From NCBI GenBank assembly GCA_003647375.1, contig QMMS01000148.1:1-10489 (forward strand): a stretch of 10,489 nt of DNA. The letters run 5' to 3'. The notes under the pieces are model-generated. The model saw nothing but the letters and a program-made list of their open reading frames with translations. It had not been told where the DNA came from and made no database searches. Numbering within the stretch: the stretch's first letter is position 1; every line of letters starts with the position of its first letter. Positions 261-9,971 of the stretch are shown piece after piece. The stretch is from Deltaproteobacteria bacterium (lineage in GTDB: Bacteria; Desulfobacterota; Desulfobacteria; Desulfobacterales; B30-G6). The position numbers and the translations under genes were made by a program.

Positions 261-1205
261 CTAACTGGCGACCCAGACGGCGACATCGCATGTCGAGGAA
301 ATCAGTTTATTGCTAACGCGCCCGTGGAGCATGACTCCCATAAAACTGACAGCCTCTCGACGGCCTACGACAATGGTCCCGTAGTTGCCTTCCACAGCCG
401 TGTCGATAATTCTCTGTATGGGGTTGCCCTGGTGAAACAAAAAATCGACCGATATATTCTTTTTAATCATGCCGGCTTTTACAAGGCGTTTAACCGCTTC
501 GTCCATGGTGGGTCGGAAACTGTTTTGATTGTATTTCAGTACGGTTTCTTGGTCCAATTCTCCTGCTATTCCGTTGTTGGAGATGGGTGACAGGTTCTGG
601 TCGTTGAATACGTGAAAGAGAGAGACTTCCAGACCCCGCGCTCGTGCCAGGTCACCGATGCAGGTGGTGGCCCGCATGGCCTCGATGGATTCATCCAGCG
701 CGATGAGAATTTTTTTGGATGCAGGTTTGCCGCCGACCACGATGATGGGGATATGTCTGACATTTTCGATCAGCTTGAAAGCCATGCTTCTCACAACGAA
801 ATCCTTCAGCCGGCTGATACCGGACCGCCCCACCACCAGAGCCTGGTAGCCCTGATACGATTCCTGAACGATATCTTTTAGTATGTTGGTTTTCTTGGTC
901 TGGGTTTTAACGGTAACAGCCTCTTCCGGAAAACCGGCATCGGATAGAATCTTAAACGCTTTTTCTTTGAATTCGCCCAGGACCAGTTGGTTGTCGGCAA
1001 GCCATTTTTCCACCTTCACCTTTTTTGATTGATAAAGGGGATTGCGGTTCATTTCCCAATAGACTTCCGGGAAACCGGTACCGACGCTGAGAAGCACCAC
1101 CTCCGTCAGGTCGGGAGGAACAATCATGCTGATATAGCGGACAGCTTCCAGGGCTTGATCCGATCCGTCAACGGCGATCAATATTTTTCTTCGAATGACT
1201 GCCAA
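261..1205 (-). CDS. universal stress protein, tandem two-domain UspA family
   Basis: This 314-residue protein carries two UspA folds in tandem, about residues 5-158 and 163-314. Each opens with a strand of the KILIAVDGSD / KILIALDESI type, which is characteristic of Usp proteins. The usual nucleotide-binding motif G-x2-G-x9-G-S/T is present in part. The first domain has G126 and G129, then R139-S140 where G-S is expected. The second has G281 and a later GRVS, but E284 replaces the second glycine, so ATP binding may be altered. The start is TTG at 1203-1205, supported by a GGAGG ribosome-binding site 7 nt upstream (1213-1217) and by the typical N-terminus. The gene follows rnfB after 47 nt and ends with TAG. 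It is probably co-transcribed with rnfB. Usp proteins are soluble and tied to stress or energy limitation; the specific role here is unknown. Confidence 0.92.
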   Translation of the reverse strand: MAVIRRKILIAVDGSDQALEAVRYISMIVPPDLTEVVLLSVGTGFPEVYWEMNRNPLYQSKKVKVEKWLADNQLVLGEFKEKAFKILSDAGFPEEAVTVKTQTKKTNILKDIVQESYQGYQALVVGRSGISRLKDFVVRSMAFKLIENVRHIPIIVVGGKPASKKILIALDESIEAMRATTCIGDLARARGLEVSLFHVFNDQNLSPISNNGIAGELDQETVLKYNQNSFRPTMDEAVKRLVKAGMIKKNISVDFLFHQGNPIQRIIDTAVEGNYGTIVVGRREAVSFMGVMLHGRVSNKLISSTCDVAVWVAS

Positions 1206-1252
1206 GTTGCTTCCTCCTTTTCACAATACCAGATCATGGTAAAAAAAATGAC

Positions 1253-2164
1253 CTAACCCCGCCATTCGGTATCGTCCACTGTGGTTTTAAAATCGGGAAC
1301 CACTATCTCCGGCGCCTCTAAAGTTTCGGCTTTTTCCAACTCTCTTGGAGAAGGTTTGCCCACAAATACAAGACGTTGCCGCTTGCATTTTTCACATGCT
1401 TCTAGAACTTCCATGGAACATTCCGGTGTATAGTCATCGTAGTTGATGGTGGAAAGATTGTTTTCAATGGTAAAAAGACTGGAAGTTCTGGCACAGGCAC
1501 CGCATCCGATGCATCCGACATTGCAGACGCTGATGACGTCTTTACCCTTGTCCTTGTTGGTGCAGGTTACTGCCAGCATCCGTTCGGCCTTGAAAGGGGT
1601 GATGCTGATGATGTTTCGCGGGCATGCTTTCGCGCAGGCACCGCACCCAACGCATTTTTCGTAATCCACCGTTGCCAGACCTTCGATTACATGGATGGCA
1701 TCGAATTCGCAAACCCGGGTGCAGTCACCAAAACCCAGGCAGCCGTATGTACACCCCTGAACATCTGTCACCAGGTTGGCAGCCGAGCAGCCCATCTCGC
1801 CACGGTATTCATTTCTTCCCAGACGGTCGTCGTAATGGGCGCCGCAGTGCACCACGGGCCGGTAAGGAAGTGTTTCTCCCACTTCAACGCCCATTATGTC
1901 GGCTACTGCCGACATACAGTCGGCCCCGCCCACCGTACATTTGTTGACAGCTTCGTGTTCCAGCGCCACGGCCTCGGCATATTCACCACAACCCACGTAG
2001 CCGCACCCACCACAGTTGGCGCCGGGAAGGGTTTCCAATATGGCCAGGACGCGTCGGTCCACGTCCACGTGGAATTTTCTGCTGGCCCACCCAAGAATGA
2101 ACGTCAACACCAGTGCCATGGAAAGCATGGTTGCGGCAGACAGGCTGATTGTAACCCAGGTCAT
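1253..2164 (-). CDS. rnfB: Rnf complex subunit B (polyferredoxin electron-entry subunit)
   Basis: RnfB receives electrons from reduced ferredoxin and passes them into the Rnf complex at the cytoplasmic face. The 303-residue protein has an N-terminal membrane helix (about residues 4-26). A 4Fe-4S domain follows with C51, C54, C59 and C76. Ferredoxin-type clusters come next: C138/C142/C148/C152 and a classical CxxCxxCxxxCP at C171-C181. A third motif, C214/C218/C221/C224, has S228 where the fourth cysteine would be expected. C249, C257 and C260 lie near the C-terminus. The ATG start has an AGGGAGG site 4 nt upstream. Unlike the rest of the cluster it is separated from rnfA by 208 bp, so it may have its own promoter or control. 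It ends with TAG. Confidence 0.96.
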   Translation of the reverse strand: MTWVTISLSAATMLSMALVLTFILGWASRKFHVDVDRRVLAILETLPGANCGGCGYVGCGEYAEAVALEHEAVNKCTVGGADCMSAVADIMGVEVGETLPYRPVVHCGAHYDDRLGRNEYRGEMGCSAANLVTDVQGCTYGCLGFGDCTRVCEFDAIHVIEGLATVDYEKCVGCGACAKACPRNIISITPFKAERMLAVTCTNKDKGKDVISVCNVGCIGCGACARTSSLFTIENNLSTINYDDYTPECSMEVLEACEKCKRQRLVFVGKPSPRELEKAETLEAPEIVVPDFKTTVDDTEWRG

Positions 2165-2182
2165 GGGTCCTCCCTATGATAA

Positions 2183-2200
2183 CTGACATATCAATGTCAG
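2183..2200. promoter_or_regulatory. perfect inverted repeat just upstream of rnfB
   Basis: CTGACAT, a 4-nt ATCA loop, then ATGTCAG form a perfect 7-bp inverted repeat. It lies about 19-36 nt upstream of the rnfB start codon and some 8 nt from its ribosome-binding site. It could be an operator for a dimeric repressor or an RNA hairpin affecting rnfB translation or mRNA processing. The sequence alone does not decide which. Confidence 0.35.
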
Positions 2201-2243
2201 GAGTTTATTTGTATTAATTCGATGTATAAAAACTGGTACCGTT

Positions 2244-2293
2244 GTGTATATTGAGTTTGTTGAGTTTCTTGGGTTCGTTGGGTTTGTTGTGTT
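2244..2293. repeat. 9-bp tandem repeat in the rnfA-rnfB spacer
   Basis: On the plus strand the units are GTGTATATT (2244-2252), GAGTTTGTT, GAGTTTCTT, GGGTTCGTT and GGGTTTGTT (2280-2288), then a partial GTGTT. The consensus is GRGTTTGTT and the last four full units differ at only one to three positions. On the rnf mRNA strand it reads as A/C-rich AACAAACYC. It lies in the 208-bp gap between rnfA and rnfB. I see no open reading frame with a ribosome-binding site in this gap. Confidence 0.75.
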
Positions 2294-2372
2294 GCTATCG
2301 GCCATTCGCTTTTAGACGACCTCAACCCGGCACTCTCTGACAGAGGCCTACCCTCGAACCCTTCTTATCCAC

Positions 2373-3068
2373 CTACATCAAGGCGGTCCGGATGCCGCTG
2401 TCCACCCCGGTAAATCCCATAAAGGCCATGGCTATAATGCCACCGACAATCAGGGTGATGGCTGCCCCCCTGAAAGGCACAGGAATATCACAAAGGTCGA
2501 GTTCTTCACGGATGCCTGCCATGATGACAATGGCGATGGTGAACCCAAGTCCGCCAAAGATACCCAGGACCAGAGCACGCCCTAAATCCCAGGCTTCGGC
2601 CGGATTCTCGACACCGACAACCTTGCTCATAACCGTCAAACAGGCAAACAGAATGGCACAGTTGGTCGTGATCAACGGCAAAAAGACCCCGAAAGATTTG
2701 TATAGTGGCGGATAAAACTTGCGCATGTACATTTCCACAAACTGGACTGACGACGAAATTGAAAAAATATAGACGATGTAAGCCAGGATGGTCAGGTCGA
2801 TCTTGGCTGCCTGTTCGCTCGACATGAAAAATCCGGCCACCCAGCTTGAAACAGGCGCTCCTTGTACCAGGACCAGGCTGGTAACGGTCCAGGAGATGAA
2901 TACTGCGATGATCATTACAAACGTGACGGCACTTCCCATGCCCACAGCCATATCCACCTGGCGCGACACCCCGATAAATGGACAGATACCGACAAAATAG
3001 TAGAACACGAAATTGTTGATCAGGGCTGCACCGATGGCAATCAAAAATATGTCGAATAGATATTCCAT
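2373..3068 (-). CDS. rnfA: Rnf complex subunit A (integral membrane)
   Basis: RnfA is a polytopic membrane subunit that pairs with RnfE, and the two hold a membrane-embedded 2Fe-2S cluster (known from Nqr/Rnf structures). The expected ligand cysteines are visible: C29 in the GICPFIGVS motif and C137 in LITTNCAIL. The family signatures [11 protein letters not shown] and PVPFRGAAI are also present. At 231 residues it is longer than the roughly 190-200 usual for RnfA/RsxA. The extra length lies mainly in a loop around residues 68-92 and another around 148-162. The start ATG lies 3 nt after the rnfE stop, with an AAAGGGGG-type ribosome-binding site inside the end of rnfE, so the two are translationally linked. 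It ends with TAG. Confidence 0.96.
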
Positions 3069-3071
3069 GGC

Positions 3072-3698
3072 TTAATTCCCCCTTTGCGGTCTGTTCGTAC
3101 GCCAAGCGCGAATCCAGTTGACCCCGGCCAGGAGAAGTCCGAAGGTCAGAAAGGCACCGGGTGGCAGCACCATGATCACCCACGGGGGCCAGGCAGCCGG
3201 AAGCATGGGTATACCCAGCAGCATGCCGGTACCCAGTATCTCCCGAACCGCAGCAATGCTGGCCAGCGCAAGGCCGAATCCCAGGGACTGGCCCACGGCA
3301 TCTCCTGCCGCTGCCAAAGGTCCCTGCCTGGAAGCACAGACTTCGCAACGGCAGATGATGATGCAGTTGACAATGATCAGTGGAATATAAGGCCCGAGAG
3401 TCTTGCTCATCTGGTACATGTAGGCACTCAGGACTTGATCCACGATGGTCACGAAGGTGGCAATAGTCAGGGTAAAGATCACGATTCGCAAATGGGGTTT
3501 TAAAAGATCCCGGATCAGGCTTACGATAACATTGGCGCACAGCAGCACCAAGCCGACAGCCACGGCCATGGTCAGCGCGGGCTTCAGTCCATTGGTTACC
3601 GCCAGGGTCGGACACAGCCCCAGAAGTTGCCTGTAGACCGGGTTTTCAGGCAGGATACCTTGAATGAAACGCTCACTCGGTGTCGGAAGCTTGCTCAT
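3072..3698 (-). CDS. rnfE: Rnf complex subunit E (integral membrane)
   Basis: RnfE is the partner of RnfA in the membrane core. The 208-residue protein has several hydrophobic helices and the two conserved cysteines expected to bind the shared 2Fe-2S cluster, C29 in LLGLCPTLAVT and C112 in IVNCII. The signatures AVREILGTG and LPPGAFLTFGLLLAG are typical. The stretch right after C112 is unusual: where family members normally read NCIxxGRAEAFA, this one reads NCIIICRCEVCA, adding C116, C118 and C121. The ATG overlaps the rnfG stop by 4 nt (ATGA), showing tight translational coupling. The start MSKLPTPSERF and the overall length fit the family. It ends with TAA. Confidence 0.96.
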   Translation of the reverse strand: MSKLPTPSERFIQGILPENPVYRQLLGLCPTLAVTNGLKPALTMAVAVGLVLLCANVIVSLIRDLLKPHLRIVIFTLTIATFVTIVDQVLSAYMYQMSKTLGPYIPLIIVNCIIICRCEVCASRQGPLAAAGDAVGQSLGFGLALASIAAVREILGTGMLLGIPMLPAAWPPWVIMVLPPGAFLTFGLLLAGVNWIRAWRTNRPQRGN

Positions 3699-4378
3699 TG
3701 ACCCTCCCCTGTATGGACGGTCTGGGAGGTAAGCCGTCCTTTGATGTCTATCACGGTCTGGTTTACAATATCGGCAACGCTTCGGGAAGAGATGGTTGCA
3801 CCGGTAACAGTATCGATCGTATTGGATGCCGTACTTTTTTCTTTTACCACCACAAAGGGTTTCGCTGTTTTTCTCCCCGCGAACTGTTCCCGCCAGGCAG
3901 GAAATGTTATCTTGTTACCCAGGCCGGGAGTTTCTTTCTGCTCTAAAATGAACAGACCGGTGATGGTTTCAACATCGGGATCGACACCAATGAGAACCTC
4001 GATATTGTCGGCATATCCCTGCCCCCGGGCTTTTACCACCCAGCCGGATATTACTTTACCGCGGGACACCCGGTACAGGGGATAATAGGTCGTCTTTTGC
4101 CCCTTTTTAACGGAAACGGTGCCGGGGATGATCTCAAGCGGTATATTGATGTCGGCAGCGTATTGAGCTGCATTTTCCCCCCACACCAACGCCGGAACCT
4201 GTGTCAATGTTTCATCCAGCTTATTGGCGGCAATAACCTCACTGAGGCTGATTTGAACAAAGGCCAGGGCCGTCCCGAAGCTGACAGCAAGCACAATTAC
4301 GAGCCAGGCCTGAGCCAAAAAACTATTTTGAAACCAACCCCTGCTGAGGATTGAGCTGTTTTTAACGGTTTTTCCCAA
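3695..4378 (-). CDS. rnfG: Rnf complex subunit G (covalent FMN subunit)
   Basis: RnfG carries a covalently bound FMN on the outer face of the membrane and passes electrons within the complex. The 227-residue protein has one N-terminal transmembrane helix (about residues 22-43) and an FMN-binding domain. The flavinylation motif is clear: VTGATISSRS, with T195 the predicted FMN-phosphothreonine. The motif ETPGLGNKI (149-157) is also typical. The start is TTG, immediately next to the rnfD stop. It is supported by a GGAGGT ribosome-binding site 7 nt upstream (4385-4390) and by placing the membrane helix near the N-terminus. The gene overlaps rnfE by 4 nt. Flavin attachment needs an ApbE transferase, which is not in this window. 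Confidence 0.96.
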   Translation of the reverse strand: MGKTVKNSSILSRGWFQNSFLAQAWLVIVLAVSFGTALAFVQISLSEVIAANKLDETLTQVPALVWGENAAQYAADINIPLEIIPGTVSVKKGQKTTYYPLYRVSRGKVISGWVVKARGQGYADNIEVLIGVDPDVETITGLFILEQKETPGLGNKITFPAWREQFAGRKTAKPFVVVKEKSTASNTIDTVTGATISSRSVADIVNQTVIDIKGRLTSQTVHTGEGQ

Positions 4379-5362
4379 TTAAATACCTCCAAAAGGCCTG
4401 GGGATGGTCCAGCGATTGATCAGCGGCGTCAGCGCATTCATCAAAAGGATCACAAACATGACGCCTTCCGGGTATCCGCTGAACAGACGCAGTATCATCA
4501 CCAGCGTGCCCACACCAATACCGAAAATCCACTTGCCCTTGGCTGTCAACGGACTGGTGACCGGATCGGTAGCGATAAAGAAGGCCCCGAAAAGAAGCGC
4601 ACCCCCCATGATATGGTGCAACACGGTCCAGTGAGTGGACAGGTCCGTAATATTGGCAATACCGCCAAGCACCAGCGATGCAACTATCACACCGGCCGGA
4701 ATTTCCCAGGAGGCCACGCGTCGTATGCACAGGTAAAGTCCCCCCAGCAGGCAAGCAGGTACGCTGGTTTCCCCCAGGGAACCATTGGTATACCCCCAAA
4801 ACAATGGCGCCAGTTGGCTGGCAATACCGGACTGTTTCTGTGCTGTCAGAGGCGTCGCCTGGGAGAGTATATCCACGCCACCGGTCATATCCACATAACC
4901 GGAGGCTGCAAGGCTGCCGGCAAAGGAAATCATGACAAAGGCGCGTCCAACCATAGCCGGGTTGAAGATGTTCATGCCCAGGCCGCCGAAAACCATCTTG
5001 CCGATGCCTATTGCCACGACAGAACCAATGCACCCCACATACCAGGGGGCCGTGGCAGGTAAGGACAATCCCAGGATCAGTCCGGTGACACCGGCCGATA
5101 AATCGGCCACGCTGATTGGCTTCGATCTCATTCGGGTAAAGATCAATTCAGCCGCCAGGCAGGTAGTCACGCAGATCAGCAACTGTAAGACCGCGAACCA
5201 TTTGAAAAACCAGATGGCTGCAATCAGTGTCGGACTCAAGGCGATGATCACATCGCGCATCATGTCCCGGGTGGTCATACCCATGTTAAACACATGGGGA
5301 GATGGGGCCACATGTATAGCTGGGCTGGACGGGTTGATGTCGTTTTTGAAATTTAGTTTCAT
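4379..5362 (-). CDS. rnfD: Rnf complex subunit D (integral membrane, FMN-binding)
   Basis: RnfD is a polytopic membrane subunit homologous to NqrB, believed to form part of the ion path and to carry a covalent flavin. The 327-residue protein shows many hydrophobic helices, the N-terminal SPHVFNMGMTTRDMMRDVI segment, the family signature NIFNPAMVGRAFV (131-143), and the C-terminal FSGYPEGVMFVILLMNALTP motif. The flavinylation region reads DILSQATPL, with T170 at the expected site; the usual S/T-G-A-T is S-Q-A-T here. The ATG overlaps the rnfC stop by 4 nt and the stop abuts the rnfG start, so it belongs to the same transcript. Confidence 0.96.
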   Translation of the reverse strand: MKLNFKNDINPSSPAIHVAPSPHVFNMGMTTRDMMRDVIIALSPTLIAAIWFFKWFAVLQLLICVTTCLAAELIFTRMRSKPISVADLSAGVTGLILGLSLPATAPWYVGCIGSVVAIGIGKMVFGGLGMNIFNPAMVGRAFVMISFAGSLAASGYVDMTGGVDILSQATPLTAQKQSGIASQLAPLFWGYTNGSLGETSVPACLLGGLYLCIRRVASWEIPAGVIVASLVLGGIANITDLSTHWTVLHHIMGGALLFGAFFIATDPVTSPLTAKGKWIFGIGVGTLVMILRLFSGYPEGVMFVILLMNALTPLINRWTIPRPFGGI

Positions 5363-6750
5363 TTTTTAGCTTCAGCTGCAATCAAAGTCTTGCCGGTGCG
5401 GATGAGCTGCACCAGAGGCAGACCCGCCGGACAGATATAGGAGCAGGACCCGCATTCAAAACAGGCCATGATGTTGTATTTACGAGCCAGGTTCAGTTCA
5501 CTGAGACGGGAAGCCATGGCGATTTTTGTGGGCACCAGATTCATGGGACAGACATCCACGCAGCGACCGCAACGAACGCAGACGGAACGCTCCACCCGCC
5601 GGATTTCTTCGTGGCTCAGAACGGTGATGCCACTGGTGCCCTTGGTTACGGGAATCTCGAGGTTGGTGAAGGCAAACCCCATCATAGGTCCGCCGGCGAC
5701 GATCCGGGCCGCTGTCTTTTTGAGACCGCCACAGTATTTGATCAGCTCTCCCATGGCGATGCCGATGGGAACCAGCAGGTTCTTGGGATGGACGATACCG
5801 CCGCCGGTAACGCTTACTACCCGATGAGTCAACGGAAGGCTTCGCATGACACCCCTGGCCACACTGGTAGCCGTGGCCACGTTGGTCATGGCCACACCGA
5901 TGTCTGAGGGAAGGCCGCCCAAGGGCACTTCGCGGTTCAAGGTGGCTTTGATCAGGTGTTTTTCACTTCCCTGGGGATATTTTGTTTTGAGCACGGCGAT
6001 GTGAATACCGGCTCCGGATGCTGCCTGCCGCAGTGATGCCACGGCTTCCATCTTGTTGTCTTCGATACCAATATAGGCCTTTTTTGCGCCTACAGCCCTG
6101 GCTGCCAGCAGGGTCCCCGCCACCACAGCTTCGGGAGCTTCCACCATTACCCGGTAGTCGGTGGTAAGATAGGGTTCGCACTCGCAGCCATTGACCATCA
6201 GAATTTCTATCGGTTTCTGATCGTTGGGTGTTATCTTGACATGCGTGGGAAAAGCCGCGCCGCCAAGTCCCACGATACCGGCCTGGTGAATGGCCTTGGA
6301 AATTTTTTCCGGGGCCAGGGTCTGGTAAGATTTCTGGGGCCATTTCCCGCCGAACATCTGGTCCCACAACGTCTGGCCGTCAACCTGTTCTCCCTCTACC
6401 TTGATGGCAATAGCCTGCAAATGCCGCCCGTTTGCCAAGGTAACTGTTTCTGTTTTTTTGACCACACCGGATACCGGGGCATGGATAGGAGCTGATATAA
6501 AGACCTCTCCCTTACCGATCATTTCCCCCAGTTCCACCTCTTGCTTGGCATTGACAATGGGGGTACAAGGTCCGCCGATGTGCTGCTGCAGCGGTATAAG
6601 TATCTTTTCCGGCGTGGGTATGATCTCAATGGGTGCGTCGGCTGCCAGTGATTTTCTTTCCGGTGGGTGAACCCCGTGGGCAAAGGTCCCCGGTCCGGGA
6701 AAGAATCCTGTGGCGTCATGTTCACGATATTTTTTTTTCAGAAAAGCCAT
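5359..6750 (-). CDS. rnfC: Rnf complex subunit C (NADH/FMN and Fe-S subunit)
   Basis: RnfC is the peripheral cytoplasmic subunit that exchanges electrons with NAD(H). The 463-residue protein shows the N-terminal FAHGVHPPERK segment, a sandwich-type domain around HAPVSGVV (90-97), the nucleotide/FMN-binding region GIVGLGGAAFPTHVK (158-172), and NGCECEPYLTTD (188-199). Two 4Fe-4S motifs follow near the C-terminus: C391/C394/C397/C401 and C430/C433/C436/C440. It is first in the cluster, so the operon promoter should lie in the 236-bp gap upstream. The ATG at 6748-6750 has only a weak ribosome-binding site, but the N-terminus matches the family. It overlaps rnfD by 4 nt. No cytochrome c gene, often found upstream of rnfC in Desulfobacterota, is present. 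Confidence 0.97.
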   Translation of the reverse strand: MAFLKKKYREHDATGFFPGPGTFAHGVHPPERKSLAADAPIEIIPTPEKILIPLQQHIGGPCTPIVNAKQEVELGEMIGKGEVFISAPIHAPVSGVVKKTETVTLANGRHLQAIAIKVEGEQVDGQTLWDQMFGGKWPQKSYQTLAPEKISKAIHQAGIVGLGGAAFPTHVKITPNDQKPIEILMVNGCECEPYLTTDYRVMVEAPEAVVAGTLLAARAVGAKKAYIGIEDNKMEAVASLRQAASGAGIHIAVLKTKYPQGSEKHLIKATLNREVPLGGLPSDIGVAMTNVATATSVARGVMRSLPLTHRVVSVTGGGIVHPKNLLVPIGIAMGELIKYCGGLKKTAARIVAGGPMMGFAFTNLEIPVTKGTSGITVLSHEEIRRVERSVCVRCGRCVDVCPMNLVPTKIAMASRLSELNLARKYNIMACFECGSCSYICPAGLPLVQLIRTGKTLIAAEAKK

Positions 6751-6986: not shown

Positions 6987-7513
6987 GTGCAGAAAGGACT
7001 GCGTGAAGACATAACTGGCCGCGCCGCCGGAATCTCCCGGTTTCTCGCCCTGAAACGCAGCACCGTCGGTGTGCTGGCCATGGTGGTGCTGGTGGGTATG
7101 GGCGAGCGGATGGCCGAGCGTTTTCTGCCCATTTATATAATGGCCCTGGGAGGAGGTGTGCTGGTCATTGGTCTGTTGCAGGCCATGGACAATCTGCTCT
7201 CGGCCCTCTACTCGGCGGGCTTTTCATCGGTATCCTCATCCGATTCTGCGGGGGCTCAAGGAATTTGGTGAGCCCACCCCGCAAGTCCCTGATCATGGAC
7301 TTGGCACCGGACAGCTGCAAGGCGGGCATGTTCGGGCTTTATTATCTGATCCGAGATGTTTTCGTATCCCTTGCCGCTTTTGGCGGCGCGTTTTTATGGC
7401 CCATCAGCCCGGGGACCAATCTCGTTACGGCAGTTGTATTCGGAATCCTTGGCACAACGGGGTTTGCAGTTTTTGGTCGTGATCTGTGGGAAAAACCTGG
7501 TAGAATCCAATAA
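6987..7513 (+). pseudogene. decayed MFS transporter (large internal deletion plus frameshifts)
   Basis: The first ~75 codons read as an MFS N-terminus with GERMAERFLPIYIMALGGG and a following helix. From about 7211 the frame changes to LLGGLFIGILIRF. It shifts again at about 7246 to LRGLKEFGEPT, and again at about 7280 to RKSLIMDLAPD, which then continues through FGLYYLIRDVF and more helix to a TAA at 7511-7513. These pieces read as the N-terminus and the C-terminal half of one transporter. With about 175 codons in total against some 400 in the family, the middle is missing. A CCACCCCGC run looks like a single inserted C. The start is GTG with a GGGGGAG site 4 nt upstream. The substrate is unknown. 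It cannot make a working 12-helix transporter. Confidence 0.85.
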
Positions 7514-7603: not shown

Positions 7604-8362
7604 TCAACCTCTGCCGGGTGGCAAAATCCCTTTAGTGAGGAGACTCAGGGCAGTGGCGATAATTTTGGCTGTTTGAACGGCATTCGCATCTGTATCGCGA
7701 AACCCTCTCTCTCTGATTTCAAGATGCATCGATTCAACCCTGTCAAACCCGTAACCCTGCTGATTGAACCATTGGTTGAGCCGCTTGGCATCACGGCCGC
7801 GGTAATTCGACCCAGCCGGATGAGTCAGAATGGTAGTCAGGCCTCCGGCACACAACTGGTCACGGAAGATCTCCACCGTCTCATTGCGGGCTGAATAACG
7901 GCTCCGGGTTTCACCGGTTTTGGGATTCCCGCCCTGTCCATAACCAATCAGAGCGTGCAGCTTTTCAGGGGCTTCATCGAACAGACCGAGGGATTTATGC
8001 TCCTGCCCCTGGGCAATGGCGACATCATCGGTGATCCCATGAATCCAGACCACGTATTTCTTCGCTCCGTTTTTAACAATCGTTTCGATGCGGCGGAGGT
8101 AGCCTGAGACCTTTTTTGAATGGTCGATTCTGTAGAGGTCTAGAAAATAGTTTTCCAGACTTTTGGTGATCGGCCCCTTCGGCTTGAAAAAAAGGTCATT
8201 GAGGATGGCATGACAGTCAAGTGTTTGTTGTATCTTTTCGGCAATGATGCCGGTACGCACATCATTTTCAAATACACCATTAATGACCGGGCTATGGGGA
8301 GAAACGATCAAAAGGTCACGCTTGCCAGGGATGTATCGTATGCCGCTGGGTTTCTGTGTCAA
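7604..8362 (-). CDS. N-formylglutamate amidohydrolase-like protein (putative zinc hydrolase)
   Basis: This 252-residue soluble protein resembles the N-formylglutamate amidohydrolase superfamily. An N-terminal strand runs into SPHSP (H23), followed by a FENDVRTG segment. A central WIHGITDD motif (H109, D112, D113) has the character of a metal site. Near the C-terminus, ESMHLEIRERGFRD (E215) resembles the superfamily's closing QxEINR-type motif. No signal peptide or membrane helix is seen. The start is TTG at 8360-8362, with AGGAG 6 nt upstream and no better ATG. It lies 89 nt downstream of mttB on the same strand and could be co-transcribed. It converges with the MFS remnant. The true substrate is unknown; family members cleave N-acyl or N-formyl amino acids. 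The family assignment is moderate, from motifs only. Confidence 0.7.
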   Translation of the reverse strand: MTQKPSGIRYIPGKRDLLIVSPHSPVINGVFENDVRTGIIAEKIQQTLDCHAILNDLFFKPKGPITKSLENYFLDLYRIDHSKKVSGYLRRIETIVKNGAKKYVVWIHGITDDVAIAQGQEHKSLGLFDEAPEKLHALIGYGQGGNPKTGETRSRYSARNETVEIFRDQLCAGGLTTILTHPAGSNYRGRDAKRLNQWFNQQGYGFDRVESMHLEIRERGFRDTDANAVQTAKIIATALSLLTKGILPPGRG

Positions 8363-8414: not shown

Positions 8415-8451
8415 AATAATTCTAAATTTAATTAAAATTCGGGATAGGGTC

Positions 8452-9948
8452 CTAATATATTACCTTGAGCTCTTTTTCAGTTTCGCGGATTATTTCATCA
8501 ATCTCTTTTTGAGCCTGTTCACTGATGGGCTTGGGCTGATGATTTGCCACCAGTTCCCTGGCCCTTTCCATAGCCCTTTCGTGGATGTCGGTTCGACCCT
8601 TGGCCGACCAGTTGTCATAATTTTCACGGTTCATAAGCCCGGGTTGTATCAGCTCGGAAAAATGATCCAAAGTGCTTGGATGCGTCAAGTAATTCCCGGT
8701 GTGCCCTACCTCCTTGATAAGATCCACCGAAAGAGACGTTTCCGTAACCGGCAGCCCTTTAACGATGCGCTTAATATGATGATTGATCTCATCATCAAGG
8801 ATCATTTTGCCGTAATCCAAAACCATTCCGCTGTCCAGCATCCCTGCTCCATAAACCAGATTGGCACCTGCCAATGAGGGAAGAAGCGCTGTAAGCAAGG
8901 ACTCGAACCCGGTTTGGGCGTCACACAGCTTGCTATCCACCTACCCGCCCGATACCCTAACGGGGATATGGTAATAACGACCCATCCGGGACAGGGCTGC
9001 ATTTAATATGGCGCCTTCCACAGATCCCACGGCGGCAGTGCCGAAAAGCATATCCATGGATGTGGTGGAACTGCTGTATATCATGGGTGCACCGGGCTTC
9101 AGCAGTTGTCCTAAAATCAACCCGCTTAACACTTCGGCATTGTGCTGAACCACTGTTCCGGCAAGATGAATGGGAGATGTTCCTCCGGCCAGACACATGG
9201 AGAGCACACTGGTGACAAAATTGTGTTCCACCGAGGCCATCAGCACTTCACTGCATTCGTCCACCAGTTGTAAAGGGCTCACAACACAGACTCCGGTAAA
9301 AAAGAAAGGATTCCGGCGAAAGACGTCTCTGCCCACAGCAGCCTCTCCCATCAATGCCATTTTAGGAATTAAATTGGCCGTGGGGGGTACGGCTTCCACC
9401 GGTTTGGTAGTGTTTGCGAGCATGGCCGCCGTGGCGTGCATGGTTTCGGTCAGGGGAGATTTTTCCGTACAACTCAATACGGTGATCAATATCTCAATGC
9501 TGCTCAAGGCATCCAAAACCCGGGTTGCCTGGGCGACATCTGCCGTGGTTGATTTTCGACGTTCGCCCGTAACTAAATCATTAATAAACACCGTGGTCCC
9601 AAAATTGATAAAGCCCAGTGAATCCCCCCCCACGATGTAATCCCGTGATCGCTCCCGCCCCGGGACGCGAATCTGTTCAGGGATGGTGGACATGGCTTTT
9701 TCGATCATGGCCGGTGACAAAAACACCCGGTGATCCTGTTTGTTCACCCGGGCACCATGATCCGCAAAAATTTCGGTTGCCCTGTCGCTGGGAACAAAAA
9801 TACCAGTTTGATCCAGAACTTCCAATGTTGCATTGTGGATTTTTCGGCAATCTTCATCACCCAGGCACTGCAACCGAAAGGGTGCGACAGGTTCAATGGC
9901 AACACCACACTTCTCTGCTGCCTGGGTTACTGTTTCGATTGGCATCAT
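8452..9948 (-). CDS. mttB: trimethylamine:corrinoid methyltransferase MttB with an in-frame amber (pyrrolysine) codon
   Basis: MttB transfers a methyl group from trimethylamine to its corrinoid protein, the first step in trimethylamine use. The reading frame runs 335 codons from ATG, meets TAG at 8941-8943, and continues in the same frame for 162 codons. This gives a 498-residue protein, close to the ~495 of archaeal MttB, with the amber codon at residue 336 against about 334 there. Conservation holds on both sides: LAGGTSPIHLAGTVVQHNAEVLSG and GTAAVGSVEG before it, VDSKLCDAQTGFES and LLPSLAGANLVYGAGML after it. Two ATGs stand in tandem; the AAAGGAG site (9952-9958) is 3 nt from the first and 6 nt from the second, so the second (9945) may be the true start. 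The gene ends with another TAG, then TAA 7 codons later. No mttC or transporter gene adjoins it. The alternative, a nonsense-mutated gene, is unlikely given the codon's exact position. Confidence 0.95.
8894..8934 (-). other. possible stem-loop just after the mttB amber codon
   Basis: On the mttB mRNA, AGCAAG begins 6 nt after the UAG and can pair with CTTGCT ending 47 nt after it. Inside, GAC/GTC and CCC/GGG allow further pairing. Its position resembles the stem-loops (PYLIS) described after UAG in some methylamine methyltransferase genes. Those elements are not strictly required for pyrrolysine insertion, and this pairing is short enough to be chance. Confidence 0.3.
8941..8943 (-). other. 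in-frame UAG codon, predicted pyrrolysine insertion site of MttB
   Basis: The codon reads TAG on the minus strand, between VSGG and VDSKLCDAQTG. In methanogen MttB the pyrrolysine sits at the same place in the alignment, before a D/S-rich D-A-K/S-K segment. The flanking codons keep one frame. The GTG that follows is read as valine, not as a new start; no ribosome-binding site precedes it. Confidence 0.92.
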
Positions 9949-9971
9949 TTTCTCCTTTCAGACATCTCTAT

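Follow-up and report, generated by a model that had tools for sequence, protein, structure and literature searches.

The stretch of DNA analysed here (10,489 nucleotides, referred to below as the window) was found to carry, on its minus strand, what is very probably one gene for a full-length, pyrrolysine (Pyl)-containing and corrinoid-dependent amine methyltransferase of the MttB family, 498 residues long, from an uncultured, Desulfobacterota-like bacterium in which UAG codon 336 would be decoded by a pyl system. Pyl-MttB of Deltaproteobacteria has already been published, with an account from 2021 (Kivenson et al., 2021, PMC8318568) and one on Bilophila (PMC7593587), and as these sources describe the group the window gene is a further member of it. 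Its contribution is one more well-supported pyrrolysine gene, here in a bacterium that has not been cultured.

The mttB reading frame

A single MttB-family frame of 498 codons runs on the minus strand from 9948 to 8452, its sole interruption being a TAG at 8941-8943 (codon 336). The ORF upstream of this codon (9948-8941) starts with ATG and encodes 335 aa before it is ended by the TAG; beyond it the frame resumes at a GTG (8940-8938) and continues for 162 codons to 8455, with the terminator at 8454-8452. The features of the locus are listed below.

9952..9956, minus strand: AGGAG resembling a ribosome-binding site, 3 bases 5' of the ATG (motif recognised by eye)
8944..9948, minus strand: pre-amber part of the mttB-like gene, 335 codons with an ATG start, homologous to the residues of 7xcl before the Pyl site
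8941..8943, minus strand: in-frame TAG, codon 336, the predicted pyrrolysine codon, aligned with residue X of 7xcl and present as TAG in relatives
8844..8943, minus strand: match to Rfam PYLIS_3, the model for the mttB pyrrolysine insertion sequence, beginning at the TAG, with 58.6 bits (gathering threshold 38), most likely coding homology only
8455..8940, minus strand: post-amber part of the mttB-like gene, 162 codons, Pfam MTTB 107.8 bits, TIGR02369 positions 316-469, dN/dS 0.11 against the relative L001
8452..8454, minus strand: terminator of mttB, likewise TAG, as read from the sequence
8428..8451, minus strand: seven codons and a TAA in frame past the terminal TAG, the extension that would result if the terminal TAG were read through

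The read-through protein of 498 aa matched the Pfam MTTB profile (PF06253) in one stretch covering residues 25-493 (307.5 bits), while the half-proteins before and after the TAG matched adjoining parts of the same profile with 183 and 107.8 bits, respectively. With TIGR02369, the NCBIfam model for pyrrolysine MttB, the whole protein scored 547.5 against a cut-off of 525, whereas the two halves (332.6 and 194.6) remained below it. A chance open frame was ruled out, as shuffles of the bases contained an average of 24.6 in-frame stops (n = 50) and none of 2000 had one stop or fewer.

A first-pass annotation of this DNA had placed a single MttB frame, split only by the TAG at codon 336, at 8452..9948. 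Both the frame and the coordinates are correct, although the strand (minus) was absent from that description. Its statements that family sequence is conserved in frame on both sides of the TAG, that the length of 498 and the position of the codon fit archaeal MttB (Pyl 336 compared with 334 in 7xcl, at similar length) and that the window holds no pyl genes were likewise borne out. No tRNA genes were found within the window.

Relatives and database proteins

The scan of a genome collection yielded four relatives of the gene, L001 (89% identity), L002 (68%), L003 (69%) and L004 (64%), whose genomes are designated G001 to G004. L001 belongs to a MAG labelled Deltaproteobacteria bacterium Ww484, L002 and L003 to genomes labelled Desulfobacteraceae and L004 to one labelled Desulfohalobiaceae. 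L001 is labelled Myxococcota in the tree, yet its genome shares one order with G002 and G003. When 389 genomes drawn from that order were searched, with the best few candidates scored per genome, the clade was present in four of them, namely G001, G002, G003 and a further genome, G218 (E 1e-190). An ortholog of the window mttB was not found in G005-G007, where the best matches reached 42–43%.

The RnfC protein of the window is 78% identical to that of G007 and 76% to that of G006 (both of the G001 family) and 61% to that of G003. G001 carries the closest mttB (89%) but no close match to this RnfC (best 24%), so the window comes from another genome, placed only loosely; the G001 family or its vicinity is the assignment proposed here, without certainty. 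A nifS-like gene is found in divergent orientation on the upstream side of mttB in both the window and the G001 locus.

The protein database contained 133 proteins over threshold, of which 120 were listed; proteins of full length lay within the limits set for the search. The closest 65 of these 120 listed proteins (P0002-P0066, 56–92% identity) included none of full length, all being 345 aa or shorter; 44 were exactly 334 aa long and 63 ended in Gly-Gly, the residues that precede the TAG. The expectation that gene callers would truncate the gene is matched by these entries, and the databases truncate the window's clade thoroughly, its closest listed proteins all being short pieces. Among the next 55 listed (P0067-P0121), 48 ended in Gly-Gly and two were of full length with Tyr or Ser at the Pyl site, which shows that the family at large also includes forms with a sense codon there.

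Equivalence to the pyrrolysine site of MttB

Three structures in the PDB (7xcl, 7xcm and 7xcn) are presumably those of Methanosarcina barkeri MttB and the entries that belong to PMC9842639. On alignment of the window protein to the 7xcl chain (E 2e-80; 275–277 bits), the TAG was located exactly under the residue printed as X, and the fold of the predicted protein is settled by this solved homologue. The active-site residues of MttB are given as Gly110, Thr111, Met249, Pyl334, Tyr364 and Gly372 (PMC9842639), and their counterparts in the window are G117, T118, M251, O336, Y366 and G374 (numbering mapped by hand, with the columns checked in the alignment). G117 and Y366 are kept in all five aligned members of the clade, and the active-site Thr is replaced by Ser in L002 and L004. 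In the Thr111 column the window's clade is closer to the solved MttB than are the other rows, which have Glu in 27 of 32 cases. The solved enzyme therefore resembles the window protein in the equivalent Pyl position, the length and the five other residues named for its active site; the window protein differs in being bacterial, in the level of the match (the bits given above) and in that no corrinoid-protein gene was recognised beside the window mttB.

TAG occupies the position of codon 336 in all five clade relatives for which DNA was available (L001-L004 and G218) and the corresponding place in 32 further distinct MttB homologues, one of which (L031) has Thr rather than Gly before the TAG. 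In all, 41 TAG-bearing MttB homologues or pieces were counted (five in G001, three in G002, five in G003, six in G004, eight in G005, four in G006 and ten in G007); five of these (G005:C311 and G007:C205, C104, C162 and C243) were left out of the inspection, and the 36 distinct genes inspected had TAG at the Pyl site without exception.

Between the window and L001, dN/dS was 0.08 upstream of the TAG and 0.11 downstream of it, and 33 of the 51 differences downstream were at third positions. For the four pairs compared, downstream values ranged from 0.11 to 0.15, those beyond L001 being rough because synonymous sites in L002-L004 are near saturation. The low dN/dS and the third-position bias indicate that the post-TAG part is translated and needed, and this part is under purifying selection.

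Two published bacterial genes can be set beside that of the window. The Pyl-MttB of marine Deltaproteobacteria, for which an in-frame amber codon at position 327 of 485 is reported (Kivenson et al., 2021, PMC8318568), is like it in the amber codon and the bacterial group; the likeness is one of description, not of sequence, and does not imply membership of the clade. The Bilophila Pyl-MttB, according to PMC7593587, is likewise deltaproteobacterial, cut at the TAG in public databases and accompanied by pyl genes in its genomes, but it comes from a gut organism and is again likened by description and not by sequence.

Pyrrolysine machinery in related genomes

PylS and PylB were found over their cut-offs in all four of G001-G004, and PylC and PylD in three of the four; over-cut-off PylC and PylD were not found in G004, the assembly of which is fragmented. 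PylS also exceeded its cut-off in G006 and G007. Four genomes of the G001 family are in the collection, three with PylS over the cut-off and the fourth with a piece of it 11 bases from a contig start. Four of the seven kin genomes (G001, G002, G004 and G006) were found to encode tRNA-Pyl with a CTA anticodon; in G001 its gene lies directly before pylS. This tRNA was not found in the fragmented assemblies of G003, G005 and G007; in G003 pylS starts 344 bases from the contig end. G002 was seen to contain three PylB homologues over the cut-off (C158, C153 and C355), and in G001 pylB (C14) is on a different contig from pylS-pylC-pylD.

Sampling of the kin order gave PylS over the cut-off in 19 of 146 genomes; predicted pyrrolysine use is common there, and the view that bacterial users of pyrrolysine are few is out of date. 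Among 14 controls for the PylS search, a match at threshold was obtained only in Methanosarcina acetivorans. Judging by these kin, the window's own genome would be expected to carry pyl genes. The earlier suggestion of an amber codon at the pyrrolysine position of MttB in a Desulfobacterota-like bacterium is upheld by the match to 7xcl, the TAG in all five clade relatives and the full or nearly full pyl sets and tRNA-Pyl in the kin.

With the pyl genes expressed, PylS would charge tRNA-Pyl (anticodon CUA) with pyrrolysine supplied by PylB, PylC and PylD, and UAG 336 would be read. As in the chemistry described for the solved MttB, the pyrrolysine would lie in the TIM-barrel active site and bind the methylated amine via an imine, and the methyl group would be presented to the cobalt of a corrinoid protein (PMC9842639). 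A second methyltransferase may then pass the methyl group to tetrahydrofolate and onward to the Wood-Ljungdahl pathway, as proposed in PMC8318568. The substrate would be trimethylamine or another tertiary amine.

Phylogenetic position and profile scores

In the alignment and tree (A1, 37 rows; L062 and L065 are duplicates of L056 and L049), the window and L001-L004 formed a clade of their own with 100/100 support on a stem of 1.34 changes per column. A1 omits L032 and L038 (cut at contig ends), L053 (early in-frame TAA), L047 (fragment) and L066 (no TAG), and G218, found afterwards, is outside the tree. L032 is a partial mttB at the end of the G001 contig that bears pylT, S, C and D and, by look only, genes for a corrinoid protein and a second methyltransferase. 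It is like the window gene in family and TAG site and lies in the genome with the closest ortholog, but it is only 42% identical to the window protein, as well as partial at the contig end. As judged from its sequence, the window gene is not an ortholog of this mttB.

The gene had been called a trimethylamine methyltransferase in the first-pass annotation. The assignment to the Pyl MttB family holds, but trimethylamine as the substrate is not secured, since the mttB of the pylT-pylS contig in G001 stands apart from the window's clade. The window and L001-L004 scored 547–555 with TIGR02369 and L032 scored 610.8. A further 12 full-length TAG members were scored singly, 11 of them at 587–771 and L059 at 559.7. 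The window protein exceeds the cut-off of 525 by only a small margin (547.5), and two homologues in which Val or His replaces Pyl reached 570 and 573, so a score over this cut-off is a weak test and establishes neither the use of pyrrolysine nor trimethylamine as the substrate; the cut-off presumably separates substrates no better.

Both TIGR02369 and Rfam RF02510 were observed to pass their cut-offs on homologues without TAG (L039 and L046 for both models; L040 was tested for Rfam), which makes them unfit as the sole basis for calling Pyl genes. MttB homologues with a single in-frame TGA were also noted (G007:C214:1686-3119 and G006:C110:29639-31069), and could reflect selenocysteine, a pseudogene or an error.

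Gene neighbourhood and the substrate

In G002, G004 and G218 the clade gene is adjoined by genes for a GntR regulator (66–77% identical) and a non-Pyl MttB homologue (66–70%). G004 and G218 also have, nearby, an ABC transporter whose binding protein is of the lysine/arginine/ornithine type; the two binding proteins are 61% identical and score 239 and 233 bits, below the TIGR01096 cut-off of 256.35. In G002 a Pyl-bearing MtbB homologue (440.8 bits vs 369.1, TAG at codon 375) comes directly after the clade gene, and in G218 one that is 77% identical to it comes directly after mttB. Such a neighbourhood is absent at the window and L001 loci, and for L003 the non-Pyl homologue is present only in pieces. 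The surroundings reported by Kivenson et al. (2021; PMC8318568), with an LAO-type binding protein, ABC permeases, a regulator and a non-Pyl MttB homologue, are alike in G004 and G218 and missing in the window. In that account the gene is taken as a trimethylamine methyltransferase, and the binding protein is thought perhaps to act in Pyl synthesis.

These features bear on whether the enzyme, while using pyrrolysine as proposed, has as its physiological substrate a tertiary amine other than trimethylamine, for example a partly demethylated amino acid, a reading that is tenable but rather unlikely. It is favoured by the separation of the clade from the other TAG-bearing MttBs (100/100, stem 1.34), by its lower TIGR02369 scores (547–555 against 587–771 for 11 of 12 others, with L059 at 559.7) and by what stands beside the gene elsewhere, that is, the non-Pyl MttB homologue and GntR regulator in G002, G004 and G218, the lysine/arginine/ornithine-type transporter in G004 and G218, and the Pyl-bearing MtbB homologue that is next in G002 and G218. 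However, apart from a Ser in place of the Thr in L002 and L004, the clade retains the named active-site residues, and in the Thr111 column it is nearer to the solved MttB than are the other rows, 27 of 32 of which have Glu. An MtbB neighbour fits the series trimethylamine to dimethylamine to methylamine equally well, and the binding proteins are under the TIGR01096 cut-off. Further, the window and L001 are without the neighbourhood, L003 has only pieces of the non-Pyl homologue, and PMC8318568 names the gene in a like neighbourhood a trimethylamine methyltransferase.

Somewhat more doubtful still is a specific form of this idea, in which the window's clade would be a second functional class of Pyl MttB and the second of three enzymes that successively demethylate a methylated amino acid of lysine/ornithine type after its import, with the non-Pyl MttB homologue acting on the quaternary, the clade enzyme on the tertiary and the Pyl MtbB homologue on the secondary amine. 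No proposal of a substrate other than trimethylamine for a Pyl MttB was found in the open-licence literature, as covered by titles and the openings of abstracts. Were the clade to act on methylated amino acids, pyrrolysine chemistry would extend past simple methylamines.

Alternative readings of the amber codon

The remaining alternatives concern the decoding of codon 336 itself. It is highly improbable that the TAG is a true stop, in a pseudogene or through a sequencing error, that leaves a 335-residue fragment only. The standard code would halt the frame at 8941-8943, and TAG is a frequent normal terminator in the kin (ending 47 of the 204 ORFs sampled in G001 and 51 of the 230 in G006), but the TAG falls where the solved enzyme has its pyrrolysine, and an identical TAG is found in five relatives, four at 64–89% identity and the fifth in G218. 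Together with the purifying selection downstream (dN/dS of 0.11–0.15 in four pairs, rough beyond L001), its presence in these relatives led to the rejection of a true stop or an error.

A stop at the TAG followed by reinitiation at the adjacent GTG, to give a two-subunit enzyme, would require a start codon at this point. GTG, a possible start, does follow the TAG in the window, L001, L002 and L140, but L003 and L004 have GTT, and ATG, GTG or TTG was seen in only one of 32 other TAG homologues. As the break would moreover split a conserved active-site motif mid-way, this reading was also rejected on the codons found at this place and is given very little credence. Insertion of another amino acid by an ordinary amber-suppressor tRNA is just as improbable, as nothing was found in its support, the window has no tRNA, the kin encode tRNA-Pyl, PylS and PylBCD, and this position is where the family carries pyrrolysine.

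The Rfam PYLIS_3 model also matched all three non-TAG homologues tested (L046, L040 and L039), and the fold of the post-TAG RNA, compared with shuffles, showed no extra stability in five clade members (z of 0.03 for the window, and 0.47, −1.13, 0.97 and 1.16 for the others). For both reasons the match at 8844..8943 is read as coding similarity, and a PYLIS-directed mechanism is unsupported.

TAG as a terminator

The window mttB itself ends in TAG, a point absent from the first-pass annotation. This codon terminates three of the six clade genes (those of the window, L001 and G218), the others terminating in TGA (L002 and L004) or TAA (L003). Four of the nine genes listed in the window (usp, rnfB, rnfA and mttB) end in this codon. 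In stretches of G001 and G006, both Pyl users, TAG terminates 47 of 204 (23.0%) and 51 of 230 (22.2%) ORFs, respectively. In three genomes of the order that gave no match to PylS, the figure for the stretches sampled was 21 of 127 (small samples). The ORFs were taken from a simple longest-ORF script, with which the G001 value was 21–24% under other length limits. A depletion of TAG as terminator was accordingly not seen in these small samples.

Backup stops were considered as a sign of frequent terminal read-through, and no excess of them was found after TAG. In G001, TAA or TGA occurs within 10 codons after 43% of TAG-ended, 40% of TAA-ended and 31% of TGA-ended ORFs, and in G006 after 18, 38 and 23%, respectively. 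High use of UAG is described as typical of Pyl bacteria in PMC9723677, where the control of specificity is called unresolved in the organisms of that study, and as it is stated there such use is not claimed as new. In G218 (L141 10961-12631) the terminal TAG of mttB was observed to be the sole stop before the in-frame start of mtbB, so that read-through would give an MttB-MtbB fusion.

The window mttB combines in one frame two amber codons of presumably opposite meaning, the internal one for pyrrolysine and the terminal one for stop. It offers a ready test case for how Pyl users with frequent UAG stops distinguish these codons.

Other features of the window

Just downstream of mttB, on the minus strand at 7604-8362, lies an ORF of 252 aa that matched neither Pfam nor NCBIfam and is, by eye, N-formylglutamate amidohydrolase-like. 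Two overlapping short ORFs on the plus strand (6987-7513), without a Pfam match, resemble frame-shifted pieces of a membrane transporter (MFS-like by eye). The region 261-6750 on the minus strand contains an rnfCDGEAB operon for electron transport, then a universal-stress-protein gene; rnfA, E, G and D were named from order and look only, while rnfB and rnfC were confirmed by NCBIfam and usp by Pfam.
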